Shown in pieces: positions 10,858 to 29,186 of a stretch of DNA of 29,186 nucleotides. The DNA comes from a virus: the IMG/VR virus record IMGVR_UViG_3300006802_010402, positions 1-29,186 of that record; one strand, written 5' to 3'. The notes beneath the pieces are model-generated. The model saw nothing but the letters and a program-made list of their open reading frames with translations. It searched no databases and was not told where the DNA came from. Numbering within the stretch: the first letter of the stretch is position 1; each line of letters starts with the position of its first letter. The translations under genes were made by a program, and so were the position numbers.

Positions 10858-12923
10858 CAGCCTCTCCCCACTGACGAGCCAAGGCTTCGGAGTCCACCGA
10901 ACAGATTGACTGAATCCTGTCGGATCTTCGCTGATCTTTGTTCCTCATCGAGCTCCACCTCGTATCGTTTCTCGAAGTCCTCGGCAAAGCGTGCGTCCTC
11001 ATCGACATCAATGAACGAACCTTCGATCTGCTGTGGTTCATCGAACTCTATCGCTCGACCCTGGGCCTCGAACTGAGCGAACTCAGCCGCGACCTCTTGG
11101 CTGTACGCATCAGCACGATTACGCTTCTGCTCCTCGTTCATGAGCTCGATCTCCCATGGTTCAGGGTCACGACGAAGTGCTGTACGCATGGCTGTCTTGG
11201 AGTATTGATTCATCGCTGCGGGATCGAGTCCGACGAACGGCTTGGATGGAACGAAGTCCTCGAGGGCGTACCCTCGAGCCTTCCTCTCATCAGCACCCGA
11301 CGCAGCTTCCTTGGCCTCCATGTAGTCCTGCCAGGTGTTGGCCAACAATGTCAGCTGTTCCTGCCATGTTTTCCCCGAAAGGTTCGCTGAGTACATGACC
11401 GATTCCATTGCGGAAGTGATGAGTTCATCAAGGAAGCCGGTGCCTTGGTATGTCTCGGGAAGGAGCCCCGCCATGATCCCCTCCTCAACGAAGGACTCGA
11501 GCTGACCTGGTGTCATGTTGTCCACGGTACGCGAGAAGTCCTCCTCGGTGTACCGCCATCGATCCGATGTGTAGCCGGTTATGGACGGGTTGATAGGCGA
11601 GCCCTGTATTCCTTCACCGACCCACGGTACGCGCGGGTTCTCGATCTGGAAGAAGGCAGCGTTGGCTTGGGCAAGGAAGCCCTCGGGGTTGGCCTCGGCA
11701 AGTGCCTGGATCTGGGCAAGGTCAGCGGTTGGGTGGTTCGTGACCCACCAAGCGATCGCTTCATCTACGGTCTTGAAGCCCTCCCACTCCTCGTCTGAGG
11801 AACTACCGCCCGTCGGGTTGTTCGTGCGCTGAGCTTGACGCAGATCGGGTGCACCACCGGAGGTGACTATGCCGCGCTGATAGGTGTACGGATTCTGCGC
11901 TCCGGTGCTCTGAGCACCCACACCGCCTGGATACTCGGGCCCTGTTGGTGGTGGTATTGTTTCATGGATGATGTTGCCGATAGCCTCTACATCCATGTTG
12001 TTGATCGCAGCGAGAGCATCCACGACCTCATCTTCAGTGAGCTCAACTTCCTCGCCGGTGGCTATGTAGCTCCAATCCTTGCTCATCTTCTGGAGCGCGT
12101 TCTGCTGGAGCTGAAGGTCAGCCTTGAGCTTTGCCTCCTCGTTGAGCTCCCCCTGTCCCTCGGGATCTGCCACAGCGATGGCAGTGCCGGCGAGCGCGTT
12201 CAGCAACGCCACGCCAGAGTTCGCAGCACTCAAGGCACCGGCTACCGTAACCACGGAAGTTGGAATCGCAGCGGTAGCTACACCGAGCATCGACAGTGGG
12301 GCAGAGAAGAAGGCACCAACGCCACCTGATGCGTAGATGATGAATGCAGCTGTGGCTAACCCAATAGCCATGCCGTATGGATTGAACCCCAACTCCTCCT
12401 CGAACGGTAGGTACCTTGCGGTGTCCCTCATGATCATACGAATCGGGATCTCGTTTGGAACATTCCCACCACCGTAGTTCGTGGGTCCGTCAGGGAGCGT
12501 GTCGAGAGCTTCGTTGTAGGCAGCGAAGTACTCGTCCTGCCATGTCATGTGAGTCACGGGATCCACAGAGATATCAGTTTGTGGGCCTACCTTCATGAGC
12601 GCGACCTGTCGAGCCTGGTGCTCTTTGTCTCCACCTGTGCGCATGAGGTTGTATTGAGCTGCGCTTTGTATCCACTTGTTCCGATTGAGCTCAAAGACCG
12701 TACCGTATTTGTCCGTGAACTCCTCGGGGTGACTAAGGATGTACTCCTTGGCCTCATCATCATGCTGGAGTCCGAAACGCATCACCGGAGCCAAGTGTCG
12801 GACATCCATTGCTGTGCCGACCCCGTAGTTGGGCGAAAGCATTACACGGCTCAGGAACTCATAGAGTAGGGCACGCTGTTGTGGGTCGAACCTCTCTTGG
12901 AACCTGTCGATTACTTGACTCAT
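10857..12923 (-). CDS. Large virion protein with membrane-active segment, ejection-protein-like (688 aa)
   Basis: ATG at 12923 overlaps the stop of the giant gene as ATGA. Residues about 183-252 form a long Ala/Gly/Ile/Val-rich hydrophobic stretch (GMAIGLATAAFIIYASGG, then GAFFSAPLSMLGVATAAIP, then ALLNALAGTAIAVA) that could span a membrane two or three times; the rest is soluble and helical. Residues about 320-380 are Pro/Gly/Ser rich and disordered. The C-terminus is a charged coiled-coil-like helix (ELMNEEQKRNRADAYSQEVA). Such a segment in an internal protein next to a lysin is typical of podovirus ejection proteins that build a channel across the envelope. The role is inferred; the hydrophobic segment is directly visible. 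Confidence 0.85.
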   Translation of the reverse strand: MSQVIDRFQERFDPQQRALLYEFLSRVMLSPNYGVGTAMDVRHLAPVMRFGLQHDDEAKEYILSHPEEFTDKYGTVFELNRNKWIQSAAQYNLMRTGGDKEHQARQVALMKVGPQTDISVDPVTHMTWQDEYFAAYNEALDTLPDGPTNYGGGNVPNEIPIRMIMRDTARYLPFEEELGFNPYGMAIGLATAAFIIYASGGVGAFFSAPLSMLGVATAAIPTSVVTVAGALSAANSGVALLNALAGTAIAVADPEGQGELNEEAKLKADLQLQQNALQKMSKDWSYIATGEEVELTEDEVVDALAAINNMDVEAIGNIIHETIPPPTGPEYPGGVGAQSTGAQNPYTYQRGIVTSGGAPDLRQAQRTNNPTGGSSSDEEWEGFKTVDEAIAWWVTNHPTADLAQIQALAEANPEGFLAQANAAFFQIENPRVPWVGEGIQGSPINPSITGYTSDRWRYTEEDFSRTVDNMTPGQLESFVEEGIMAGLLPETYQGTGFLDELITSAMESVMYSANLSGKTWQEQLTLLANTWQDYMEAKEAASGADERKARGYALEDFVPSKPFVGLDPAAMNQYSKTAMRTALRRDPEPWEIELMNEEQKRNRADAYSQEVAAEFAQFEAQGRAIEFDEPQQIEGSFIDVDEDARFAEDFEKRYEVELDEEQRSAKIRQDSVNLFGGLRSLGSSVGRG

Positions 12924-15900
12924 GGTGCTCCAACCGTATCAGATATGAAGTACTCAGGGTATTGCTGCTTGATCTCTGCTTCCGTAAGGATCTTAGGCAC
13001 CTCGGTTCGAAGCAACCATAGTTCATCGTACCCGCTGTATCCATTCAAGAGAGGTTCGAGTACTCGAGTGGTGAACCAACCGATCTGACTCTCGAGCTCG
13101 GCCTTACGGAGAGGGTCAGCCTTTGCCACAAGCTCCGTGGTCGCAATGTTGATCTGATCAACTGCCTCGTCCCTCATCGCCTGGGCGACGGTACTTTCTC
13201 CGGTGAGCCACCAGGTGCTCGAGTGTGAATGGGCATCAGTAAAGGTGGACATCTCGAGGTTTACTTTCCAGATGCGAGTGACCTCCTCTGACCACTCAGC
13301 GATATCGGGCTGGAGCTCGTGTGCCAAGGCGTTGGCCTCGGTGCCTGGAGTGCCCACCGTGAGGAAGTCATCAAGGATGTTCTGAGGTGTGGGCCTACCA
13401 GCGAGTCCAGCGATCTCGCTCTGTGGTCGTGACAGTGGGTACTGCGCGTAGATGTCGAGGCGTTGCTGATTGCGCCAAAGGTCGAGTCGTTGCATGTTGA
13501 GCGACCAGCCCTTGTTGTGTTCGTAGTCAAAGGCTCTATCGATCTCGACGGCCTGAGCGTTGTAGAACTCATCGATGGCGTTGAGCGCGTTGTAGCCGGC
13601 TGTTCTTGAACGGATGTCCATGGTCTGCTCGGGAGTGAGGGTCTGCCGATCTCCCTCGTTCTTGGCTCGGTTGTAGGCGGGGAGGTAGAACTCCGACATG
13701 TTCGTTGTCGGTATGAACAGCATCATGGACGACCCCATCTTGGGGTACAGGTCACGGTGCGTCATGGCGTAGTCGTAGCCCTGCTTGTCGTAAGGGCGAG
13801 CGACGACCTCACGAGTAGCTCCCGTCATAACGAACGGGTCGATGCCAAAGCGGTTACGCATGTAGCCAGCCGCGATGTGGTCATCACCGAAGAACTCACG
13901 AGCTGCGCGCCACTCACGAGCCAAGGCTGTTGCCTGCATCCAGAATGGATCCTCCGTTTCATCGAGCTGTATGGCGATGGTCGGTTCGTAGCGTGGCTGG
14001 CCTGGGCTGATTATGCCGTCGAGGATCCGGAGCCATGCAAGGGTCGAACCGAACTTCTTGGCATCCTCGATGGTGTGATCTCTCCGATCGGGGTCAAGCC
14101 CGTATTGGGGATCGCCGGTCATCAAGAGAGTCTCGATCCGCTCGTTGATCTCATCGGCGTAAGCCTGCTTCGACTCATCCCCGAACCAGGCTTCGACAAG
14201 CCGACGACCATAGGTTGGCGAAAGGGAGGCGATGAGATCGTTGGGGCTCTGCGCTTGGTTGGCTGTGTAGTCACCGTAGACGAACCAATTGATCGCATCA
14301 CGAAGCGGCGGGTAGTTGTCGAGGACATTCTGCACCATCGAGACAGGCACCTGAATGAAGCCATGGGTACCAGGGAGCCCAAGGCCTCGAGGCGTGAAGT
14401 TCATCATCATCAGCTGATCGGGACGGATCGTTGCTGAGAGGCCGACCCCATCTGGCAAACCAGGGCTGAACAGGTCAGCCATGAGTCCAGCACCAGGCCA
14501 ATTGAATACCTCGTTGCCGAACTCATCCTCAGAGAAGAAGCCCGACTTGCGAGCGTTCTGGAGTGCGATATCACCTTTACGCCAATTCTTGATTGCTTGA
14601 CCGGCCTGATCTCCCAACGGAGTCATGGCTCGAGCCCATATCCCGACCTGCTCGATGAAAGCATCACCGAAGGGGAAGATGAATCGGAGTTGATCGGTGA
14701 TGTTCGAGCGTGAGGTGAGGTCGTAAAACAGCTTCTTGGTGTCGTCAATGGCTAGCGACTTGGCAACACTGTCGATGTCGCTGACGAGCTGCTGCTCAGG
14801 GGTGAGCACACCGAGGGAGCGGTTCGAGAACGGATGAGGCACCGAGTCCTTGTGTCGTCCACCATCGTTGCCCTTCCCGCCGGCTCCCTTGCGGTACCAA
14901 TCCCCACCATCAGCCTCGAGGTAGGCACCAGACTCATAGAAGTACATCTCGGCCTCACCGCTCCTGTGCCACCTGATGTACTCCATAGGATCCTTGATGC
15001 CCATGGGGTTGTTCTCGTCGTAGCCCATGTTCTTTGCTTCTCTCATCTTCTGCTCGTACACCTCTGCTGAGTTCATCCTGATGAGAGGATCCTCGTGGTA
15101 TCCCGGTGGGTACTGCACCTTATTGGGATCAGTGCCCTCGAGGAACTCCTGGTACTTGGCGAACTCGGAGATCTCGTCCTCGGTGTAGCCGCGCGCTCTC
15201 GAGAATGTCTCCCAATCTCCTGTGTCCATCGCTGCCCGCTGTTCAGGCGTGAGATCGGCGTAGTTCCCTGGCTTCTCGGCAGCATGGACTCGACGCTGGA
15301 GGTCATCGAAGTTCTCGATGAAGGATTTGCGAGAAGCGTGTGCCTGGTTGTACGCATCGACCGCTGGTTGGTACCAGACCGTTTCTCCCCGAGCTGCTGC
15401 TTCCTCGGCCATATGTAAATCGTATGCAGACAGCTTCGGCGTTGGGAAGATCCCTTGTGCGAGTTCATAGATGTCTGCGTCGTACCCGCTCTCGAACCCG
15501 AAGAACCTCTTAAAGAGAATGTCATCCTCGAGGAATGAGCCGGTGAATGGGTAGACATAATGACCTTGCCTACCGAGCCGAACATCGTTGCGAGCCAGCT
15601 CGATGATGAACCGTCGTTGTTCCTCATACCCACTCAGCGCAACTGCACGCCTCCTGATCTCATCATCGATCATTCCCATACTCAGTGGTGTGAGCTCGGG
15701 TGCGCTCCCCATCGGGCCCCCGATTCCTGCTGCCATCTCAGCCCACTCAACCTCCGAGCTGGCGATCAGCCATTCGTGCTGGAGCTCCTCGAGCGTCATA
15801 GCCTCGGCTTCGAGCTTCAGTTGATGGGCTGGATGTTCGGCGTAGTAGCCCCACTTGCCTGCTGGCACCGTGAACTCCCCACCATCACGACCGTAGAGAG

Positions 15901-18900
15901 CCCACTCGGTCATCGTTTCCTGCTGTGCTCCCAAGCCTTTGATGTAGTCAGCATCGATCTTGATGATGTGGCCGGCATCTGTGTGGTTGCGTACTCGTGC
16001 TGAAGCGAAAGTACGAGTGCGGTAGTCGTGTGCCTCTCCAATGTCAGTGGTGAAGGAGAAAGAGGGGTCGAGCTGATGGAAGTCACCCTGGGCAACAGCC
16101 ATGATCAGCTCTCCGTCGGGCCCGATGAACGAATCGATGTCCTTTGCGCGTGTACCGTGGAACAGCCAATCACCGTCCTCGAGGTCGTCGGCATCTGGCC
16201 ATCCTCCGAGGTGTGGGTTCATCGGGTCGGCTTCCTCGATCGGGATACGACGAGCTCCCCCTACATCTCCCGCTCCCTGCCGAGCAAGGGAGATGCCCTC
16301 TGGTTGCATCCGTATGCTCTGAGATGAGCCCGTTCCTTCGTATCTCGGGATCGGCTGAGTGCCTGGGGGGTACTTGATCTCAGGGAGAAAGTTGCCTTCT
16401 TCAAGCTGTGAGTTGAATTGCCTGTTGACCTCAGCATCGGGGATAGGGCGGTCGATGGGTTGCGTGTACTTGAAGTCCTCCCATATGCCCTGTCCGCGCA
16501 ACTGCGCCTCGAGCCCACCGAAAGTGGCATTGAGGTCGTTGACCCTGCGAGGACGGTCGAGCCCACCCACGGTGCCAGCCACAGGGAGCTCCCCCTCTGG
16601 TATCAGATCTGCTCGTTCTGGGTTCTCGAACCAGCGGTAGTCCTCAAGCCCGCCCCAATGGTTGACATGCCATCTACCTATGGCTTCCTCAACATCAGCG
16701 ATCGAGATCTCGCCCTCTGAAAGTCGGCGCAAGACCTCCATGCGTAGTGTTGAGTGGTGAGCCATCTCGTTGGCTGGAAAGTCGAAGGAGTCCGAGTGGA
16801 ACATCTTCTTATCGGCGTACCGACTGATCTCCTGCATTCGATCCTCGAAGAAACGAGGCCATTCGTCACGAGGTATTCCTTGTAGCTCGGCCTCATTAGC
16901 GAGATCCCACAGGTAGGGGTTGTCGGCAACTTGGTCAACTATCTCATGAAGGTGCTCAACGAAGGACGCATCGCCAAGGAGGAAGGCATCTTCGATCTCG
17001 TCTACGATCATGGGAGTACGGCGACCACCCTCGAGAAGTGGAAGCGAATGGTGAACATCTCGAGGGAGGCCGAGGTAGAAGCCCGCTGGAGTGCTGGCAT
17101 CTCCCGATGCCTCGATGAGTTCATCGAGCGTCATGGAGTGGATCTTGGCGGTCACCTCATCAGACCACCAGGGGTGTGTCCACTTACGATACGCCTCGAG
17201 TCGGTGTCCGTAGTAGGCATCGACAAAGGCCGGTTCGTTCTTGATACCTGGAGGGAGTGGGCCACGGTTGGCTGTCCGTCCACGCAGCTCTCGCCTGAGC
17301 TGCATCGCATTGTCCATCAGGTACTCGAGCTCACGCACCTCTTGTGGCGATACCCACGCACTGACTTGATGGCGTGGCCCCCGAATGGATGCGGGCCATG
17401 CCCACAGGTCTGTGTTCATGCCTTCGGATTCCATGTACAGGAGGATGCGGTTGAGGGCTTCGATATCCTCTGGATCCAGGCGAGCGACATTCTCTGGTGA
17501 GTGAGGAGTGATCTCGTTACCGAGCTCATCGTAGTGCTCTGTCTGCCTCGTAATGAGGATGTGTTCTCGCTGCTCACTGAGAACTTCCCAAGAAGCTGCA
17601 CGAAGGTCGAACTGTTCAGCGATATCGTCAATGCGTGCGTTGAGCTCGAGGAGATCTTCATATAGAACTGCGGAGTCTTGGATGGCTGCGTATCCACGAG
17701 GGTTGATGGCACCCGTCACAGTGCGGTGAGCCTCAACCACACCGAGCTCTTTCACCGATGCTTCGAACTGCGTTTTCACCTGGTCGAACTGACGAAGGAA
17801 CTCAACCCGATCACCGCCGGCCAACGAATTGATACGCCTCTGAGCAGCCCTTGAGATGGGCTTGTTGTTGAGCTGCCATACGCTCAGAGAGCCAGACCCC
17901 TTGTAGATCTCGTCAACGACGGATCTCATGTTGTAGTACTTGTTGACCAAGAGGTTCTGTGATGCTGCCTTGGTGCGCTGGATATCTGCTGCGGGGCGAA
18001 GATCATCGATCGTCATGGTGCCTCTACGCAGCTCTTTGATCACATCTTCAGCAACGAGGTCGAGGCCGTTGGCATCGAGGTACCACTGCAACTCACGGCG
18101 GGCATGGTTCGATACGGTTCGGAAGTCATCCAACCAATCCCATTCTTCATACGACCTACCGTGACGCAAGATCGATTCGGGGTAGACAGCCCCCTCCATC
18201 TGCGAACGGAAGCCTGGAGAGAACAGGTATTCATCCACATCGGGGGAGAAGATCCAGCCGGAACCATCGAGTTCGTGGTTGCCATCCACACGATACGCAT
18301 GATCGATAAGTGCCCGTTCAGGGATCTCGTCAATGCTCTTGACACCGTACATCTCGAGGAGCTCAGCTCCGTACTCATCCTGGAGGATCCGACGAGCTAT
18401 CGGTATCGCCTCCTCGAGCTCGTGACCCACCTCATCGTAGAACTTGAGATTCTCGATGAAGTCACCCGCCATCTCCTCGTAATCCATGACCGGCCTCGAG
18501 TAAGACATGTCACGCTCAGGCACGCCACCCCCACCGCCCACCTCATCGGGTGGGGGTACAGAGTCACCCGAACCTCCACGGCCCCGCAAGGAGCCACCAC
18601 CTTCCATGGTTCTGATATCGTCACCGACCTGCTTGATCTGTGCATCCAGGTCGTGGATCTTGTTGACCACGAGGGCATCAGGATCATCTCCGAACCACAC
18701 TCGAGCTGCTTCGTTGAGTTCATCGAAGTGTTCCTTGACGAGCTCGAGCTCGTAGAAGTTCTGCATGAGGTCACTGCGCTGTACCCCATCGCCGTACCTG
18801 GCAACGATCGCATCCACGCTGGAACGGGTATCGAGAAGGTTGTCGTGAATCTGGACCATACGAGGGGTTGGCCCTGGGGTAGCCGGCCAATTGGCACCAC

Positions 18901-21900
18901 GACGCGCGAGGTCAGTTGAGTCGGGGAACACCATGGGAACGATGCCTTCATCGACATACGGGATCAGGTTCTCGGGAAGCATCCCCATCATGTGGAGGTT
19001 GTTGAGCTTCAGCTGCCAATCGGAAGTATCAGTCCCTATTCCCTTGAGGTACGCGGCCACCTCATCTGGGCCTTCGACACCCTTGATAACTTCAGTCAGC
19101 TCATCGGTGACGGTATCGGCCTGGTCACGGATCTTGGCATAGACATATCGCCCCTTATCGAGCTCATCGAGGTTGAGGGGCCCGCCTGGTAGCTGCCTGA
19201 GTCCATGGATCTCGAGCTGTTTCTTCAGCGCACGCTGCCATGCCCTTCCCATGTTGTTCTGTTCCACCATGGCTTCGATCACCGCTCGTTGCTCAACGGT
19301 GGAGCCGAGGTACATACGGGCAGTGTGATCGAGGTAGCGGGTGAGGAAGTGAGGCTGGCGCACCAGACGAGAAGTAGGCACCTGCATGAGCACTTCGAAC
19401 AAACGATCTACCCACTGCTTCTTGGCAACCTCATCGAGTCCACCGATCATGGTTCGCACCACCTCTGGCGGTGTAGCCCCAAGCTCATCGTAGATACTGA
19501 GGATCCGAGGTTCGAGTTCAGCGATCTCGCTTATCTTCATGTTGTCGAGAAGGAAGGGCTCATCATTGAGCGTGCCGTCAGAGATGGCACGCCTGAGCTG
19601 TCCGTTCCCCTCCTCAACGATATGGAACTGTCGATTGGGGTGTTCGGTAGCGAGCCTGACGACATCTGGCGTACCGTCAGCATCATGGATCGCTGATGCG
19701 AGTTGATCTTTGTTCATCCCATGGCGACCCGTTATCCCCCTCTGCTTTGCCATCTCGAGGAGCTCGGCACGCTTGTGCTGATCCTGGAGTGCGTGGATCT
19801 GGTTCCCCCACATATCCTTGAATATCGGGCGACCTCCAGCATCCAGCTCGGAAGTGCGCTCGATCCATCGGCCTCCGGTCTGCTGGTGGATCATGGCATC
19901 GAGAGACTCGAGGTGCTCACGCAATACCGCTTCGTTGACACGCGACCTGTTGCCACGCACCACGATGATCTTGCTCTGGAGGGAACCCCGCTTCGCTCGC
20001 TTCTGGATGCTGACGAGAAGGGCACGCATAGCTTCATTGTTGGGATCTGACAAGATCCGAAGTGCTTCATCAACCCCGACATCTGACACAATGCGTGCCA
20101 CGCGAGAGCCTCTGAGCTGGAGAAGTTCGGTGAGCACGCCTCGCTCATAGCCCGACTGACCTCGGCGTGCAGCTGTCCAATTCTGACGAGACATGTCATA
20201 GATCTGGTCGGACTCACGCCAGCCACCAGCACCGAGGCCATCGCGACGGATCATGGCTACGAGATCATCACCCATCAGCGAGTAAAGCCCATCGGTGTTC
20301 TTGATCTGAGCCAGGATGTCCATTGGGTGGGTCAGCCATTCACCGTAGCCATAGGCATGTCCACGCAACAACTCCTCACCGATCACCCTGATCGGCCAGC
20401 CCATACGCAACAGCATGATGTCACGCCAATACTTGTGCAGCGTGTCGAGAGCTCGAAGCCCGATACCTGACTCGAACCCAATTGCGATCCGTTCTGGATT
20501 GAGCCCAGGGATGGCTCGATGTACCCGCATGTTGAGGGCACGCGTGTGTGCCGTGGCCCTGCGGGTATCCCTGAGATTCGGCACCACGAGGCGTGTGTTG
20601 GTGTACTGCGCTTCGTGGACAGCCGAGATGAGTGGGACTGTCGGATTACCCATGGTTTCATTAGCGACCCTCTGTTGCATGAACAGCTCGACATCACGCA
20701 TACGCTGAACCTCTTGGGGTGACGCTGCGTAGTTGAGCCAATACGATGCGTTCGATGCTTCATCGGTGGCTACCTGCTCAAGGATCTTCATGATCTCTGG
20801 TTCGGTATAGCCCGAGGCAGCGAGCTTCCTCGAGAGAACCCTGTACATGGAGTCCCTGGCTCCGGTGAGAGCACCCATGTCCTTCGTTCTATGAGCCATG
20901 GTTATCTGCGACAGAACAGCCTGGATCTCCTCATCAGAGGCGCGGATCGTTCGCATCCATTGGATCACGGCCTGCTTGGTTTCGTATGGATCCATCAGCG
21001 ACAACACGATGGGCTGACTCTGTGCGCCGTATCGCCTGAGCCCGAGGCGCATCGAGCGCACTGCCTTGTTGTTGCCGAACGAGTGCCTCGCGGTCGGATT
21101 GCGAACACCTATCTGGAGATGGTCGGAGTACTTCGAGAGGCCAAGACCTGGGGTCTTGTAGATCTCCCTGCCCAACAATGGACGGAGGATCTCACGCACT
21201 TCTTCGGCTGTGTTGGCGTGCTGTAATGCGGTGATAATGCTGTCGTCCTTGACAGTGGGAAGTCGTCGTGCCAGGTGTTCCCATCGTTTCTCACGCGCAA
21301 GGAAGTTGACGACATCATCGGACTTCTTGGGATCCATGAGCCAATCGTCAGCTTGCGTGTGCTTGAGCCACTTGCGCCACTTGACGTTGATGCCGACCTT
21401 TGCCTCATGCTCAGCCCTGAGTACATGAACCTCCATGTTGTCCTCGAGCATGTTCTTCCACGCAAGGATCTCGGCTTCCATCTCGTCACCGCGCTTGACC
21501 GACACGATTTCGTGCTTGAACTCCTCGTGGGCTTTGGTGTAGTCATCGATGAGTTGAGCCTCCTCATCGGTGATGGGGATGGGGTTGCCAGCATCATCGA
21601 CCTGGCGAACACCCCACTCGTCAACCATCGGGTCGAGGCCATCCTGGACACGCCTTGCGTTCGCCTCCTGGAGTGCGTAGTACGCGTCATCGTGCCTTGC
21701 GATGATGTGGTCTTTGCCACTCTCCCTCCAAGTCTGGATCGACTCACCCTGCACTCTTTGGTGGATGAGTTCGTGCTCGAGGACATAATCCTCATACGCC
21801 TTGAGTCCACCACGCGCATTGATCTCGTCAACGAACTCCCTGACAGTCAGGTTGTTGATCTGATAGGGGGAGCCCAGGTCAGCGGTCTGGTGCGGGTCAA

Positions 21901-22990
21901 GGGCCGGTACCCCTTCCGGTACCCTGTCGGGAGGGAAAAGGAGCTCGTCGGGTGCGTTGTGGTAACGATTGAGAAGGCCGTTCCAATCAGCCTCGATCGC
22001 CTCGGGATACATGGTGATACGCGGAACAGCGTTCGTTGAATCACTTGAGGCGGTTCCGAGCTGACCGCTCGGGCCGGCACCTGGTTCATGAAAGATGTTC
22101 TCGTTCTCCTGCATGAGCCTGCGGATGTGGTCACGCACATGTGCATCCGTTGACAGTGAGATGGCTTTGCGGTTCATCGCCCACATGCCGAGCTCGTATG
22201 CCGGTCGGTTGATCGGGTCAGCGAAGATCCTGAAACTGAGATCGGCAAGCCCCGATGCGACATTGAACGGTGTCGTATCGGGACGGAACACCGTGATGGC
22301 AAGGGCTCGACCCATCGAGGCTGGTACCGAGTAGGTCTGGTCACCGAAGGTCTTGTTGATCAGCGTTGAGTTGTGGAGGTCGTGGATGTTGTCGGTGATC
22401 GGAACGCCGTATCGCTCTTGGGTGAGAGCCGAGGCATGGCTCATCGAGGCGCGCAGATCGTGTGTCTCGTCGTACTTAGACCTCAGTGCTGTGCTGTACC
22501 CAGGGAGTTGGTGGTCTTGCTCGGAGCCATATGTCCAGCCCGAGCCCATACGGATCGGGTTCCCCATGCGAGCCTGACGAGTGATCTCGGTGAGGTAGGA
22601 CTGATTGGAGATCCGATACGCTGTCCACAAGTCCTCACCTTGGGCAGCTCGAACACCGGTACGAAGCAGTGTGTTGACACCGTGATCCCAATAGGACTCG
22701 AGCCCTGTCAAGGCACCCCTTACAGTGCCTCGCACCGCGTGCATGGGTGTCCAATCCTGCGTGATCTGGAAGTCAGCATCAGCGATCTCGGACAGGAACG
22801 GATCATCCCAACTCACCCCGCCCACAACGAGTGCTGCCGCGGTATCGGGAGCCAAGGCTGGATTGACACCAAGGATCCCCGCGAGGTTCTGAGCATCACG
22901 CTCAGTCAGCGTGTGCGACCAACCAAGGTATTCACCAAGGAACCGTTCTCGTTGGATCGTTTCTTCGTTGCGCTCTGCTGTGGTGGGCAT
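12920..22990 (-). CDS. Giant polyvalent virion protein (3356 aa)
   Basis: One uninterrupted 10-kb frame. I chose ATG at 22990 (TGATG overlap with the upstream gene) over a GTG at 23029 that has no Shine-Dalgarno. Visible parts: HELIH at 406-410, an HExxH zincin-like motif; a core segment near 780-870 with YWRDIMLLRMGWPIRVIGEE; a Rho-N/SAP-like helix pair at about 1075-1102 (ELLEMAKQRGITGRHGMNKD); a Gly/Pro linker at about 1462-1495; an ADP-ribosyltransferase-like domain at about 2270-2390 (FHGT with His2278, SFTTDIGEAHDY with Tyr2323, GGEFTVP with Glu2372); and a C-terminal core from about 2750 (LTSRSNITDQLRFIFPFGDA). Modular enzymes set in a structural frame match phage polyvalent proteins, carried in the capsid and injected. 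No RNA polymerase motif was found. Confidence 0.9.
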   Translation of the reverse strand: MPTTAERNEETIQRERFLGEYLGWSHTLTERDAQNLAGILGVNPALAPDTAAALVVGGVSWDDPFLSEIADADFQITQDWTPMHAVRGTVRGALTGLESYWDHGVNTLLRTGVRAAQGEDLWTAYRISNQSYLTEITRQARMGNPIRMGSGWTYGSEQDHQLPGYSTALRSKYDETHDLRASMSHASALTQERYGVPITDNIHDLHNSTLINKTFGDQTYSVPASMGRALAITVFRPDTTPFNVASGLADLSFRIFADPINRPAYELGMWAMNRKAISLSTDAHVRDHIRRLMQENENIFHEPGAGPSGQLGTASSDSTNAVPRITMYPEAIEADWNGLLNRYHNAPDELLFPPDRVPEGVPALDPHQTADLGSPYQINNLTVREFVDEINARGGLKAYEDYVLEHELIHQRVQGESIQTWRESGKDHIIARHDDAYYALQEANARRVQDGLDPMVDEWGVRQVDDAGNPIPITDEEAQLIDDYTKAHEEFKHEIVSVKRGDEMEAEILAWKNMLEDNMEVHVLRAEHEAKVGINVKWRKWLKHTQADDWLMDPKKSDDVVNFLAREKRWEHLARRLPTVKDDSIITALQHANTAEEVREILRPLLGREIYKTPGLGLSKYSDHLQIGVRNPTARHSFGNNKAVRSMRLGLRRYGAQSQPIVLSLMDPYETKQAVIQWMRTIRASDEEIQAVLSQITMAHRTKDMGALTGARDSMYRVLSRKLAASGYTEPEIMKILEQVATDEASNASYWLNYAASPQEVQRMRDVELFMQQRVANETMGNPTVPLISAVHEAQYTNTRLVVPNLRDTRRATAHTRALNMRVHRAIPGLNPERIAIGFESGIGLRALDTLHKYWRDIMLLRMGWPIRVIGEELLRGHAYGYGEWLTHPMDILAQIKNTDGLYSLMGDDLVAMIRRDGLGAGGWRESDQIYDMSRQNWTAARRGQSGYERGVLTELLQLRGSRVARIVSDVGVDEALRILSDPNNEAMRALLVSIQKRAKRGSLQSKIIVVRGNRSRVNEAVLREHLESLDAMIHQQTGGRWIERTSELDAGGRPIFKDMWGNQIHALQDQHKRAELLEMAKQRGITGRHGMNKDQLASAIHDADGTPDVVRLATEHPNRQFHIVEEGNGQLRRAISDGTLNDEPFLLDNMKISEIAELEPRILSIYDELGATPPEVVRTMIGGLDEVAKKQWVDRLFEVLMQVPTSRLVRQPHFLTRYLDHTARMYLGSTVEQRAVIEAMVEQNNMGRAWQRALKKQLEIHGLRQLPGGPLNLDELDKGRYVYAKIRDQADTVTDELTEVIKGVEGPDEVAAYLKGIGTDTSDWQLKLNNLHMMGMLPENLIPYVDEGIVPMVFPDSTDLARRGANWPATPGPTPRMVQIHDNLLDTRSSVDAIVARYGDGVQRSDLMQNFYELELVKEHFDELNEAARVWFGDDPDALVVNKIHDLDAQIKQVGDDIRTMEGGGSLRGRGGSGDSVPPPDEVGGGGGVPERDMSYSRPVMDYEEMAGDFIENLKFYDEVGHELEEAIPIARRILQDEYGAELLEMYGVKSIDEIPERALIDHAYRVDGNHELDGSGWIFSPDVDEYLFSPGFRSQMEGAVYPESILRHGRSYEEWDWLDDFRTVSNHARRELQWYLDANGLDLVAEDVIKELRRGTMTIDDLRPAADIQRTKAASQNLLVNKYYNMRSVVDEIYKGSGSLSVWQLNNKPISRAAQRRINSLAGGDRVEFLRQFDQVKTQFEASVKELGVVEAHRTVTGAINPRGYAAIQDSAVLYEDLLELNARIDDIAEQFDLRAASWEVLSEQREHILITRQTEHYDELGNEITPHSPENVARLDPEDIEALNRILLYMESEGMNTDLWAWPASIRGPRHQVSAWVSPQEVRELEYLMDNAMQLRRELRGRTANRGPLPPGIKNEPAFVDAYYGHRLEAYRKWTHPWWSDEVTAKIHSMTLDELIEASGDASTPAGFYLGLPRDVHHSLPLLEGGRRTPMIVDEIEDAFLLGDASFVEHLHEIVDQVADNPYLWDLANEAELQGIPRDEWPRFFEDRMQEISRYADKKMFHSDSFDFPANEMAHHSTLRMEVLRRLSEGEISIADVEEAIGRWHVNHWGGLEDYRWFENPERADLIPEGELPVAGTVGGLDRPRRVNDLNATFGGLEAQLRGQGIWEDFKYTQPIDRPIPDAEVNRQFNSQLEEGNFLPEIKYPPGTQPIPRYEGTGSSQSIRMQPEGISLARQGAGDVGGARRIPIEEADPMNPHLGGWPDADDLEDGDWLFHGTRAKDIDSFIGPDGELIMAVAQGDFHQLDPSFSFTTDIGEAHDYRTRTFASARVRNHTDAGHIIKIDADYIKGLGAQQETMTEWALYGRDGGEFTVPAGKWGYYAEHPAHQLKLEAEAMTLEELQHEWLIASSEVEWAEMAAGIGGPMGSAPELTPLSMGMIDDEIRRRAVALSGYEEQRRFIIELARNDVRLGRQGHYVYPFTGSFLEDDILFKRFFGFESGYDADIYELAQGIFPTPKLSAYDLHMAEEAAARGETVWYQPAVDAYNQAHASRKSFIENFDDLQRRVHAAEKPGNYADLTPEQRAAMDTGDWETFSRARGYTEDEISEFAKYQEFLEGTDPNKVQYPPGYHEDPLIRMNSAEVYEQKMREAKNMGYDENNPMGIKDPMEYIRWHRSGEAEMYFYESGAYLEADGGDWYRKGAGGKGNDGGRHKDSVPHPFSNRSLGVLTPEQQLVSDIDSVAKSLAIDDTKKLFYDLTSRSNITDQLRFIFPFGDAFIEQVGIWARAMTPLGDQAGQAIKNWRKGDIALQNARKSGFFSEDEFGNEVFNWPGAGLMADLFSPGLPDGVGLSATIRPDQLMMMNFTPRGLGLPGTHGFIQVPVSMVQNVLDNYPPLRDAINWFVYGDYTANQAQSPNDLIASLSPTYGRRLVEAWFGDESKQAYADEINERIETLLMTGDPQYGLDPDRRDHTIEDAKKFGSTLAWLRILDGIISPGQPRYEPTIAIQLDETEDPFWMQATALAREWRAAREFFGDDHIAAGYMRNRFGIDPFVMTGATREVVARPYDKQGYDYAMTHRDLYPKMGSSMMLFIPTTNMSEFYLPAYNRAKNEGDRQTLTPEQTMDIRSRTAGYNALNAIDEFYNAQAVEIDRAFDYEHNKGWSLNMQRLDLWRNQQRLDIYAQYPLSRPQSEIAGLAGRPTPQNILDDFLTVGTPGTEANALAHELQPDIAEWSEEVTRIWKVNLEMSTFTDAHSHSSTWWLTGESTVAQAMRDEAVDQINIATTELVAKADPLRKAELESQIGWFTTRVLEPLLNGYSGYDELWLLRTEVPKILTEAEIKQQYPEYFISDTVGAP

Positions 22991-23382
22991 CAGTCTTTGA
23001 GCATCCCCAGGATGTAGCCCGAAGGCCACTTGCGCGCGAGGATACGAAAGATCATCTGTGGATCAGTCAGTGGTGGGCCTGGAGCTGCTCCTGGTGCTCC
23101 TGCTGTGATGGGCTGTGACGGAACTTGGGTAGGTCCGAAAACACCACCTCCTCCAGCCTGTGCTGGTCGAGGCGATTGATTTGGGCCTGGAGCTCCACCT
23201 GCGGGTACGGGAGCTGCTGCTTGGGCTGCTTCCATCTCTTGTCGAGATCCATAATCTCCACCTGGCGCGACAAGGTTCGCAGTACGCAAGTCGGAAGGGC
23301 CCCCGTCTGTGCGAGCAGAGAACCTACCTGGCCCGGATACCGCAGCTGGTCTTGACGGTTCACGCTGTCCTCCTTGTGCCAT
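22990..23382 (-). CDS. Pro/Gly/Ala-rich small protein (130 aa)
   Basis: ATG at 23382 is preceded by TAGGAGTAACAC. Residues 1-105 are low complexity and probably disordered (VPAGGAPGPNQSPRPAQAGG, QPITAGAPGAAPGPPL). The last 25 residues form a short ordered segment, DPQMIFRILARKWPSGYILG. A disordered arm with an ordered C-terminal peptide next to the portal and giant-protein genes suggests a linker or an assembly or packaging factor. The stop overlaps the favoured start of the giant gene. The family is not recognised. Confidence 0.72.
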   Translation of the reverse strand: MAQGGQREPSRPAAVSGPGRFSARTDGGPSDLRTANLVAPGGDYGSRQEMEAAQAAAPVPAGGAPGPNQSPRPAQAGGGGVFGPTQVPSQPITAGAPGAAPGPPLTDPQMIFRILARKWPSGYILGMLKD

Positions 23383-25744: not shown

Positions 25745-27940
25745 TTACCTCGGGTATTTCGTTGTCCATGGGACTCGACCATCTTGAGTCCGAGTCATAG
25801 GGTACGCTGATTCGTGCTGGCTGACAATCTTGTGTTGCACCGTGTCATTACGGATCCACTTGAGCATCCTGGGCCACGGTAGCCACTGAGCCATCTTGAT
25901 GTCGGTTTTTGCGTTCTTGCCGGTCTTGAGCCCATCGGTCGTCCAGAGCGAAAGCTGGCGAAGAAGGAGGTTCACCTTCTGGCGTGCGTTCGCATCACCG
26001 TAGGGTAGGTCGATCGTTCCATCATGGTAGAGCGGGGCCATCGAGGAGATCCCGTAGGCGGGGTCGTGCTTGTTCTTGCCGGTGGTGTGCTTGAGCACCG
26101 TGATGCCGAGTTCGTAACAGATCTCCTTGAGGCGGGGATCACGGAAGAAGTCGTCCTTGGACATGTTGTCCTCGTACACCCACAGGTCGAGTCCGTACTC
26201 AGCGTGCCATCTCCGCATGAGCTCATGGGCCCCCTCGAAGCCTCCCGCCTTCTGAGTCTCGAGATCCACCATCGACAATGTGGGGTCTGCCCAATGCCAC
26301 AGGAAGGCTGCCTGGGTGCCGCGGGGGGCTGGGTCAAGGCCAGCGATAAGACGACCAGGACCGAGCTGGTCTATCCCCAACCCCCGCGACTTGTTGAGAG
26401 CCTTCTCCCTGATGACATCCATCTTGAACACGATGCCCGTTTCGGGGATCGGCTTGTTGAGGTAGCGCATCTCGTAGGCACCAGGGATCCCGAGGTCGTC
26501 CATCTCCTCCTTCTTCTCGAGAAGCCAGCGATAGGAACGGACCGCGGGGAACAGGACGCATCCGTTCCCGTCATGCTTGTCGATGATGTCGGGATCGAGC
26601 TGACAATCCTCATGCGCCGAAGTGACATGGACACGCCACGATGCAACACCGTCACGACCCATCAGGTTGTTCGGGATGTCGTCGGGGTGCTGGCGGGAGC
26701 CGATGTACACCCATCCGGTGCGCTCCTCCTTACGGGTGCCGATCTCTGCCAGCTTGTTGCGTGAGTACCGTCGCTGGCCCTCCTCCCTCGTCGTGTCGAA
26801 GTCCTCGAGGTCATCAACGATCAGGCCGTCCACATCACGAGAGAGGATCTTGGAGGTACGCCCCAACGCCAGCATCGAGGATGACTTCTGCCCGACACGC
26901 TTCTGTTGGGCAACCTTGATCTCCTTGTTCGACCATGGCTTGTTGGTTCCCCACCCTGGCTTGTACCGATCCCCTGGTGGAAGGGTGGCATGTATGAGCT
27001 CCTCGTTGGACTCGAGGTGATCCTTGACGGCACCCAACATCAGCTTGGCGACATCGGTGTTGGCAGCGACCCACATGATCCTGAACTCGGGATCCATTAC
27101 GATGAGCCAGATACAGAACCGCACCAGGGTTTCCGACTTGCCATGTCGGGGCGGTGACAGGACAAGCTGCTTGGAGCCGGTGGCGAAGCATATGATGATG
27201 AGCCTGATCCACTCGAGGTGGAAGTCCTCGATGATCGGCCTCTTACCCTCAAGGGTGAAGTACCTCCTCGAGAACATGGCATAGGCCCGCACCAGGTAGT
27301 CCACGATCTCGTTGAACTCGTCGGTGCCCTCCTCCTTGTACCCAAGGTTCCTGAGCCTCTGCCACAACTCGGTCGGCAGCATGGCCCTGGTGAGTCGTGG
27401 TCTGCGCCACTCAGCGTGCTGCTTGTCCATTTCGGTCTGGTAGTACCACGCCTCCATGCCTCGGTTCACCGATGCGGGGGTGACACCATAGATCTCGGCA
27501 ATAGCAGCCTGAGTGACGAGCCCATCGGCTATCCGTTGCCCATCCCCTGTCTCAGACAGTCTCTCATACACCTCTCCCCGTCTGAGATGGATCCCTGGTT
27601 CAGCACCGGCAACCTCCTTGTTCCTGGCCTTGGCAATCCCCACCTTCCTGACCCTCACCCGTTCCTGTGCGGCCATGACACTGTGCTCCCTCGAGCAATA
27701 GATCGCATTGGCCCTACGCCCAACGATCACACGATCACAGTTCGGCAACGCACATATCCGCTCATCAGAGCCATCACTCACAACCTGAGCCCTCAGATAG
27801 CGATATCGCTTCCTCGTAGGTGGAGTCCTATGGGTCTTGCAGTACTTGGCATTGTGATGATCCTTGATAAAGACCTCATCACACCCATCCTTACCACATA
27901 CGATCTCATCACCTTTTGCTGCTGTCATACCGGTGACCAT
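25745..27940 (-). CDS. Terminase large subunit with N-terminal zinc fingers and HTH (731 aa)
   Basis: Packages phage DNA. The ATPase part has Walker A at about 262-269 (SPPRHGKS) and Walker B LIVDDLE at about 373-379. The C-terminal RNase H-like nuclease begins with GRLIAGLDPAPRGTQAAF, with a further acidic motif VYEDNMSKDDFF. N-terminal to the ATPase are two similar C-x4-C...NAxYC...H units (Cys15, 20, 34 with His37; Cys63, 68, 82 with His86) and a helix-turn-helix at about 141-165 (TQAAIAEIYGVTPASVNR), the kind of DNA-recognition module usually carried by a small terminase subunit. Start is uncertain: ATG at 27940 follows a TATACA box closely (possibly leaderless), ATG 27928 is an alternative. 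The frame stays open to 28666 but that part is not protein-like. Confidence 0.88.
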   Translation of the reverse strand: MVTGMTAAKGDEIVCGKDGCDEVFIKDHHNAKYCKTHRTPPTRKRYRYLRAQVVSDGSDERICALPNCDRVIVGRRANAIYCSREHSVMAAQERVRVRKVGIAKARNKEVAGAEPGIHLRRGEVYERLSETGDGQRIADGLVTQAAIAEIYGVTPASVNRGMEAWYYQTEMDKQHAEWRRPRLTRAMLPTELWQRLRNLGYKEEGTDEFNEIVDYLVRAYAMFSRRYFTLEGKRPIIEDFHLEWIRLIIICFATGSKQLVLSPPRHGKSETLVRFCIWLIVMDPEFRIMWVAANTDVAKLMLGAVKDHLESNEELIHATLPPGDRYKPGWGTNKPWSNKEIKVAQQKRVGQKSSSMLALGRTSKILSRDVDGLIVDDLEDFDTTREEGQRRYSRNKLAEIGTRKEERTGWVYIGSRQHPDDIPNNLMGRDGVASWRVHVTSAHEDCQLDPDIIDKHDGNGCVLFPAVRSYRWLLEKKEEMDDLGIPGAYEMRYLNKPIPETGIVFKMDVIREKALNKSRGLGIDQLGPGRLIAGLDPAPRGTQAAFLWHWADPTLSMVDLETQKAGGFEGAHELMRRWHAEYGLDLWVYEDNMSKDDFFRDPRLKEICYELGITVLKHTTGKNKHDPAYGISSMAPLYHDGTIDLPYGDANARQKVNLLLRQLSLWTTDGLKTGKNAKTDIKMAQWLPWPRMLKWIRNDTVQHKIVSQHESAYPMTRTQDGRVPWTTKYPR

Positions 27941-27976
27941 ATCACGACTTGTATAGATTTGGAGCATGTGACTAGA

Positions 27977-28025
27977 CTCATCGACAGCGGAGCCGTCCAA
28001 ACAGCTCCGAAACAGAGTGTCTGAG
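27977..28025. repeat. Interrupted hairpin upstream of terminase
   Basis: CTCA (27977-27980), GACA (27983-27986) and CGGAGC (27988-27993) pair in turn with TGAG (28022-28025), TGTC (28018-28021) and GCTCCG (28004-28009), with loop CGTCCAAACA. TGTCTG (28018-28023) can pair instead with CAGACA (28044-28049), so two states are possible. Confidence 0.6.
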
Positions 28026-28075
28026 GTCAAAAGTTTCCAGATACAGACACGAAGCCTACGTATAGGTATACCAAG

Positions 28076-28232
28076 GTACACATTGAGTATGGGGTAGGTC
28101 AGGTGAGCCTCTCGGCTCCCCATCACATGGAATCGAGGATCGATTCTCATGTGATGTCGAGCCGTTCTCACCAGACCCACCCATCCAATCACTTCCGCAT
28201 CGAGCGGAAGTGATATGGCACTCAATATGTAC
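28076..28232. repeat. Three-way junction 1: 13-bp outer helix around two hairpins
   Basis: GTACACATTGAGT (28076-28088) pairs with ACTCAATATGTAC (28220-28232) with a single mismatch, which is a G-U pair on the minus strand. It encloses a long hairpin at 28102-28172 and an 11-bp perfect hairpin at 28188-28214 (ATCACTTCCGC/GCGGAAGTGAT, loop ATCGA). Confidence 0.8.
28102..28172. repeat. 71-nt interrupted long hairpin
   Basis: Stacked segments: GGTGAG/CTCACC, CGGCTC/GAGCCG, CATCACATG/CATGTGATG, and GAATCGA/TCGATTC closing a GGA loop (28137-28139). The inner 16 bp are interrupted only by one extra T at 28147. About 28 base pairs in total. Confidence 0.85.
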
Positions 28233-28264
28233 ACCCCGTCACAGCTAGGCAAGCACACGCCACC

Positions 28265-28324
28265 CCTCGCCGTCAGCGTAAGACGCTGACGGTTCCCTCG
28301 ATGATCACGATCATCGAGGCGAGG
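28265..28324. repeat. Three-way junction 2: outer helix around two perfect hairpins
   Basis: CCTCGC (28265-28270) pairs with GCGAGG (28319-28324) around CCGTCAGCGT/ACGCTGACGG (28270-28292, loop AAG) and CCTCGATGAT/ATCATCGAGG (28296-28319, loop CACG). Bases at 28270 and 28319 are shared between helices. Confidence 0.8.
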
Positions 28325-28337
28325 ACGCACCTTGTGC

Positions 28338-28425
28338 CACGCTCCCTGATAATGAGTCGGCTCCAGGAGCCGACACTCTTTATATCGTGCGGGCAAGCCG
28401 AGCTTGCCGCGCACAGGGGAGCGTG
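28338..28425. repeat. Three-way junction 3
   Basis: CACGCTCCCTG (28338-28348) pairs with CAGGGGAGCGTG (28414-28425) with one bulged G. Inside are GTCGGCTC/GAGCCGAC (28356-28374, 3-nt loop) and GTGCGGGCAAGC/GCTTGCCGCGCAC (28387-28414, loop CGA, one bulged base). Confidence 0.8.
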
Positions 28426-28434
28426 TCGCTTCAT

Positions 28435-28455
28435 CGAGTTGGCCAAGCCAACTCG
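28435..28455. repeat. Perfect 9-bp hairpin
   Basis: CGAGTTGGC (28435-28443) and GCCAACTCG (28447-28455) flank a CAA loop. Together with a GGCGG/CCGCC hairpin at 28483-28497 it can be enclosed by GTGTCG (28423-28428) pairing with CGACAC (28497-28502), a fourth junction that competes in part with junction 3. Confidence 0.75.
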
Positions 28456-28503
28456 TGCGGTGCGTGTAGGTGGCTGCTAAGTGGCGGGCTGACCGCCGAC
28501 ACA

Positions 28504-28756
28504 CAACTCCAATGCTCGGCGCAAGGGCGCAATCCTGCGCCCGCGCCTCTCCTATGGAGTGTCGGCTACCCGACCACTCACTCGCTGCTCCGACCGTAAC
28601 ACGCCGCGTCAAGCCGTCCGAGGGGCAACGGCGGTGTGACGACCCGCAGACGGGTCGTAAACACACACGCCTGCCCCTAACTCTTGAGGCTTGACCCGTC
28701 GTGTATCACGGTCGGCACCGAGTGAGGTGCCCGATGCACCTCGCAGATTGGAGTTG
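28504..28756. repeat. 10-bp long-range helix closing a multi-branch domain
   Basis: CAACTCCAAT (28504-28513) and ATTGGAGTTG (28747-28756) are exact reverse complements 233 nt apart. Between them lie the hairpins 28518-28547 (GGCGC-AA-GGGCGCA, loop ATCC), 28557-28579 (GAGT-GTCGG, loop CTAC), 28590-28715 and 28724-28742 (GAGGTGC/GCACCTC). The right arm contains the GGAG Shine-Dalgarno of the plus-strand gene. Confidence 0.75.
28590..28715. repeat. 126-nt hairpin with about 45 base pairs
   Basis: Nested arms from outside in: CCGACCGT/ACGGTCGG, ACACG/CGTGT, GTCAAGCC/GGCTTGAC, AGGGGCA/TGCCCCT, GGCG/CGCC, GTGTG/CACAC, ACGACCCG/CGGGTCGT, ending in a CAGA loop (28647-28650). The arms are separated by short bulges or internal loops (AC, AAA, A, CCGC opposite CCGT). 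Confidence 0.85.
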
Positions 28757-28761
28757 CGCTG

Positions 28762-29186
28762 ATGCGTCAGTACAACCTATACCCACGCAACCGTCAGGGC
28801 GAGGTCGTCCTGCCCGATGAGGCCTACGAGGAGGCTCTCTACTCTCTCCCTCAAGGGTGGGAGTCGCTGTCCGAAGCGGAACTCAACCGCTGGCTCATCC
28901 ACGAGATGATTGACAGGGGCAAGGTGGCTTCGGCTCAGCCCGAGAGCGACCAAGGTTGTCCCTCTGGGTGGTTCGAGTCGCGGAGAATCCCGACTCAGGC
29001 AAGATGGGAGGAGATCCACTCCGACCAACTCGACCTCGAGTCCCATCAACTCGTAGGTCGCCCTTCGGACAGCGACGGGTTCAAGTACGAGGTCAGTCCA
29101 CGGTTGTACCACGACCACGAGTCCGCAGCAGGACGGGTCGCATGGTACGACGGGGAAGCGTTCCAGATGGAACAGCCGGTCGTCAC
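28762..29186 (+). CDS. Hypothetical plus-strand protein, N-terminal 141 codons (runs off right edge)
   Basis: The only convincing plus-strand gene. ATG at 28762 has GGAG at 28750-28753, 8 nt upstream, and the frame is open to the window end. The protein starts MRQYNLYPRNRQGEVVLPDE, continues with an amphipathic helical stretch (AELNRWLIHEMIDRGKVAS), then an acidic, Trp/His-containing region (SDQLDLESHQLVGRPSDSDG, SPRLYHDHESAAGRVAWYDG). It is acidic and shows no membrane segment or enzymatic motif in the visible part; I do not recognise it. It is transcribed divergently from the virion block and may begin an early or replication module. The structured region upstream would form its 5' leader if transcribed from the left. 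Confidence 0.72.
   Translation, partial: MRQYNLYPRNRQGEVVLPDEAYEEALYSLPQGWESLSEAELNRWLIHEMIDRGKVASAQPESDQGCPSGWFESRRIPTQARWEEIHSDQLDLESHQLVGRPSDSDGFKYEVSPRLYHDHESAAGRVAWYDGEAFQMEQPVV

Follow-up and report, generated by a model that had tools for sequence, protein, structure and literature searches.

What kind of element occupies the non-coding stretch 27975–28760 of this phage contig, and is it RNA or DNA that folds there? The first-pass annotation had likened it to the giant structured RNAs of the GOLLD, ROOL and OLE classes, with a replication origin or packaging site as the chief alternative. The contig is a 29,186-base IMG/VR record, and "the window" refers to this whole stretch of DNA at its full length.

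Folding and genome setting of the stretch

The stretch is flanked by terL (start 27928, − strand) on one side and an ORF starting at 28762 (+ strand) on the other, and these genes do diverge as initially described. We folded 27960–28770 and found an MFE of −428 kcal/mol for the + strand, against a mean of −293 for 20 dinucleotide shuffles (z −21.1), and of −453 kcal/mol for the − strand (z −15.8, likewise against dinucleotide shuffles). When 400-nt tiles are moved across the whole window, z ranges from −7 to −13 inside the region and from −3.2 to +3.1 outside it; the ~790-nt densely folded region is thus real and extreme, and coding sequence in the window is free of such folding, both as the first-pass annotation had stated. 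Its ~15 hairpins, nested multi-branch junctions and perfect 8–11-bp stems are also recovered: the MFEs contain 16 (+) and 15 (−) hairpin loops and 8 (+) and 7 (−) multiloops, and we counted 17 perfect inverted repeats (at least 8 bp, within 300 nt; 2–6 in four control stretches), with arms of up to 11 bp. The wording that nearly every base falls within or beside an inverted repeat proved slightly too strong for this dense folding, with ~73–76% of bases paired (62–68% in shuffles). The MFEs of both strands have 254 of ~300 pairs in common.

Perfect arms pair at short range (28188/28204, 11 bp; 28270/28283, 10 bp; 28296/28309, 11 bp) as well as at long range (28368/28557, 11 bp, 178 nt apart; 28504/28747, 10 bp, 233 nt apart). 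The dense part covers ~28070–28760, and 27975–28070 is looser. The parts of the locus are as follows.

25745–27928, − strand: terL, 727 aa (phrog_38, E 5e-42; start supported by relatives)
27975–28069, no strand: looser flank between core and terL, with two hairpins (27988–28009, 28017–28050)
28055–28066, − strand: palindrome CCTATACGTAGG, with the TACGTA half of a bipartite motif (28057–28062)
28070–28760, no strand: core, a dense cluster of nested inverted repeats (fold z −16 to −21 for 27960–28770; 254 pairs common to both strands)
28076–28232, no strand: first enclosed domain, outer helix 28076–28088/28220–28232, enclosing helix P1 and hairpin 28188–28214
28091–28101, − strand: TGACCTACCCC, the other half of the bipartite motif (TGAC at 28098–28101); its GACCTACCC pairs with 28174–28182 to give helix P1 around a long arm
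28102–28172, no strand: arm inside P1 (28102–28107/28167–28172, 28113–28118/28159–28164, 28121–28129/28148–28156, 28130–28136/28140–28146)
28259–28474, no strand: second enclosed domain, outer helix 28259–28264/28469–28474, hairpins 28270–28292, 28296–28319, 28356–28374, 28392–28408 and 28435–28455
28504–28756, no strand: third enclosed domain, closed by a 10-bp perfect helix (28504–28513/28747–28756) and containing a long arm (28580–28723)
28762–29184, + strand: divergent ORF, 141 aa to the contig end, resembling the divergent ORF L177:808–1914

The head and packaging genes to the left of the stretch all run leftward and include that of an SU10-type capsid protein (PF17236, E 8e-61). A single ORF of 3,369 aa (12920–23029, − strand) has a weak Rho_N-type Pfam match (E 8e-4, below cut-off). 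By eye, many Cys/His pairs are visible in the N-terminal part of TerL, and this part may serve recognition. The window shows no separate terS. Pattern searches gave no close relative of the divergent ORF, and none was found among phages; its sole match, a weak one, is the divergent ORF of L177 (BLASTP E 2e-6 over 43 aa in one pairwise test).

Known RNA families and strand signatures

No family of Rfam 15 matches the stretch at the gathering cut-off, GOLLD, ROOL, OLE, HEARO and group I/II introns included, and a permissive scan returned only RsmV (E 4.4); kinship with the GOLLD, ROOL and OLE classes therefore finds no support in Rfam. In searches from which the window's own or near-identical records may be absent, homologues of the core were found neither in 50,697 phage records (distant blastn) nor in the complete records of 20 TerL relatives (blastn), and local alignment gave none either, the long gapped alignments obtained there being compositional noise. 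An exact 17-mer of the flank had no match. When the motif was sought more widely in viral contigs, the relative L191 and five matches in contigs without a terL match were obtained, but no closer homologue, and the papers found in an open-access library describe no such element.

ROOL and GOLLD are phage- or prophage-borne, and the stretch resembles them and OLE in size (570–800 nt) and dense multi-branch folding (PMC12286853). It differs from all three in having no covariance-model match and no conserved architecture among relatives, from OLE and ROOL as measured in its far fewer G·U pairs and stronger z, and from ROOL and GOLLD, which often lie near tRNA islands (PMC12286853), in its position beside terL.

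G·U pairs make up 1.7% (+) and 4.0% (−) of the MFE pairs, compared with 9% and 14% in shuffles. As yardsticks we took OLE, ROOL and RNase P of GC-rich bacteria from genomes. On the sense strand these have 3–17% G·U among MFE pairs, mostly 8–17% and mostly close to shuffles, together with A-rich loops and z values of ~−1 to −11. Since one GC-rich RNase P sense strand has 3.4% G·U, the test provides a lean and not a decision. The loops of neither strand show the A-rich, C-poor composition of OLE, ROOL and RNase P, and a one-strand RNA signature (G·U pairs, A-rich loops) was found on neither strand. In the window alone, three A/C mismatches that interrupt Watson–Crick pairing correspond to G·U on the terL strand. 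When six clusters are pooled, the 1×1 mismatches on the terL strand comprise 4 G/T and 10 A/C, and there is therefore no RNA bias towards this strand; the strand assignment suggested by the window disappears with pooling. Helices almost free of G·U on both strands, with no strand bias, speak against the RNA-class reading.

Structured stretches and a bipartite motif upstream of terL in relatives

TerL searches returned hundreds of relative contigs, of which those of most near relatives reach no more than ~1.2 kb upstream of terL. Bacterial genomes contain terL relatives too, for the most part remote ones, and these served as yardsticks only. Five relatives carry a hairpin-dense stretch upstream of terL: L191 (z −11/−13), L183 (z −10/−5), L177, L079 and J. 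The last is the junction of contig 3300033153_001849, the ends of which overlap by 55 nt, so that the upstream side was read across the junction; the hairpin cluster there has a z of −4 to −6.6. L177 (57% TerL identity) has the same layout as the window, with divergent ORF, structured gap (z −6 to −8) and terL. Among 61 relatives, a z below −4 is reached by 29% of 200-nt segments in the interval −1000 to −800 relative to terL (0.4% downstream), many of these belonging to marine phages with another element.

This marine element is ncRNA-like and ~200 nt long, and it includes several hairpins and an intrinsic terminator (L037:3068–3275, L073:1043–1300, L078:1–220 and L080:1580–1795, + strand; L045 ~60–330). 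In its hairpin N4-TATGAGGATA-N4, the stem letters differ yet stay paired in four phages; the elements of L037, L045 and L073 have no Rfam match.

Other features were observed upstream of terL in relatives. L235:12400–15000 (SBFI01000054.1, an Acidobacteria MAG) contains, directly upstream of its terL relative, ~54 perfect hairpins (7 bp or more); of 66 hairpins, 54 fall in the 2.6 kb that precede terL, many of them inside ORFs. The contig has 42 triloop hairpins, ~28 of them with GNA/TNC loops that are nearly all C-G closed, and C-G-closed GNA/TNC triloops are very stable in DNA. L007:1–600 shows seven perfect 6–9-bp hairpins, six with 3-base loops, set in C/A-rich linkers. By eye, L193 has a tRNA-Gln-like sequence at ~980–1045 (TTTTGGAGCTGG anticodon arm), and the string CTAGTACCCC(C/G)TGTCAAGG, seen in k-mers, recurs directly upstream of terL in L017, L009 and L177, where it is possibly another regulatory site.

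L191 and L193 have TTGACTACCC-TATGTAAAC in common. A looser form of this bipartite motif, TGAC-N32..42-TACGTA, occurs at six distinct places (the window, L191, J/L193–L195, L184, L177 and L079). In 1.5 Mb of relatives' loci (3.0 Mb on both strands), 6/6 distinct matches lie on the terL strand directly upstream of terL, a count that is partly circular since the form was written after several occurrences had been seen; L079 (34% TerL identity) was new. The motif directly adjoins the hairpin cluster in the window, L191, L079 and J. The 300 nt 5′ of the motif have z values of −9.8 (window), −12.1 (L191), −5.6 (J), −9.6 (L079) and −0.1 (L177, with its cluster at a greater distance), and the 300 nt 3′ of it −2.3 to +2.0. 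Flank alignments L191–J, L191–L184 and J–L177 score above all 300 shuffles; that of the window with L191 is reached by 2/300 and that with J by 3/300. In two different phages (L184; L193–L195), contigs start 4 and 9 bases before TGAC, as would be expected if the DNA ended, or its assembly broke off, at this point.

The clusters beside this motif are of different architecture. Those of L191 and J, anchored by their flanks, are unlike each other (43/200 shuffles score as high), that of L079 is a run of AT-rich hairpins, and the hairpins of all three differ from those of the window, a comparison that lends no support to the RNA-class reading. The nearest form of a check for compensatory changes gave a divided result: helix P1, formed by GAC(C)TACC and an upstream GGTAG/GGTGG, is drawable in three clusters (window, L191 and L079), each time with other outer pairs, while the other hairpins differ and J has no P1. 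Because of J, we do not claim P1 as proof of a conserved fold. The comparison, which involves flank-anchored relatives and not close homologues, leans against a conserved RNA fold.

Readings of the element

We tentatively favour a cis-acting DNA element, probably one for the initiation of packaging or replication, and put its probability a little short of even. What the analysis establishes is the structure, where it lies, its reappearance close to terL in related phages, the common motif and the lack of a conserved hairpin architecture; that the folding molecule is DNA and not RNA, and that it serves packaging or replication, we infer. This preference rests on the hinge position, on the terL-adjacent motif oriented with terL and on the contigs of two phages that begin 4 and 9 bases from TGAC. 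The paucity of G·U pairs, the lack of RNA-like loops and of a strand bias, the hairpin-dense stretches upstream of terL in relatives and the differences between their hairpins count in its favour as well. The origin or packaging site named as an alternative in the first-pass annotation fits better than the RNA class, although it is unproven.

The element would sit at the hinge between left-going head and packaging genes and right-going genes. It would consist of nearly perfect inverted repeats, fast-evolving but selected, beside the conserved bipartite motif oriented with terL. Either packaging, with recognition and first cut by TerL, or DNA replication would start here, and the palindromes would function as hairpins or cruciforms in DNA that is in a single-stranded or supercoiled state.

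The cos/pac packaging sites of phages occur next to terminase genes. Like them, the stretch lies beside terL, has a short conserved motif oriented with terL (all six distinct matches being upstream of terL) and has counterparts in two phages whose contigs start at the motif; we know of no cos/pac site with 700 bp of nested palindromes. With replication origins that contain inverted repeats it shares palindromes and the position in a non-coding hinge between divergent operons, but we found no iterons, initiator sites or skew evidence here, the GC skew near the stretch being small and following gene direction. Likewise, no terS, integrase, origin protein or DnaA box was found that would tie the site to packaging or replication. 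The telomeres of Streptomyces linear replicons also have closely spaced palindromes from which stable DNA hairpins can form (PMC4513846), a likeness of description. Triloop DNA hairpins occur in the relatives L235 and L007 too. Unlike a telomere, the stretch is internal, between two genes and not at a known DNA end.

Several points speak against a DNA element. The contig starts may reflect merely the loss of hairpin DNA in assembly, and in L177 the cluster stands ~160 nt or more from the motif. Multi-branch nesting whose arms are separated by 180–230 nt is commoner in RNA than in the double-stranded DNA origins or cos sites that are known. P1 beside the motif in the window, L191 and L079 would suit a conserved fold of RNA or single-stranded DNA.

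A large structured RNA outside the Rfam classes, either a free ncRNA or a 5′ leader of the terL operon or of the divergent operon that acts by its fold, is less probable. Speaking for it are the z of −16 to −21 with multi-branch nesting, the constant orientation of the motif relative to terL, the window's three A/C mismatches that are G·U on the terL strand and the P1 pairing (GAC-CTACC with GG-TAG/GGTGG), and an ncRNA-like element is indeed present upstream of terL in marine phages related to this one. Set against this are the absence of an Rfam match, the differing architecture among flank-anchored relatives (with J lacking P1), the depletion of G·U on both strands and a loop composition that is not RNA-like. 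Nor does the stretch offer a promoter or terminator for a free RNA, one weak terminator-like site (+ strand) being all that was found.

We consider it improbable that the palindromes are a mutational by-product, perfected by template switching at quasi-palindromes in the non-coding hinge (and in the L235 stretch) with no function of their own. Near-perfect arms, unique sequences and fast turnover between relatives would fit such a process, and PMC3820800 treats template switching as an accepted source of palindrome perfection. Nevertheless, a neutral process would be expected neither to keep to a single place in phages that differ so much nor to produce nested long-range helices. That the stretch is coding sequence or a series of ordinary terminators is very improbable, since the terL frame, although stop-free for 246 codons upstream (27929–28666, − strand; P ~1.6e-4 for one frame), scores −0.145 in codon usage, where the genes of the phage score +0.08 to +0.20, and has a GC content by codon position unlike genes, so that coding in this frame was rejected, and divergent genes need no terminators here despite the one + strand terminator-like site.

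Extended to the phages of this TerL lineage, the DNA reading would be that packaging or replication begins at TGAC-N32..42-TACGTA together with quickly re-invented DNA hairpins, selection keeping hairpin density and not a sequence or fold; in this general form we regard it as rather unlikely. A spectacular folding z-score in one sequence alone does not prove RNA. If the stretch is RNA all the same, it would be a new ornate RNA of unusual wobble-free design. If it is the packaging start of TerL, it would be a packaging landmark that can be recognized from sequence in a large group of uncultured phages, and it would exemplify selection for "many perfect hairpins" and not for a given fold.
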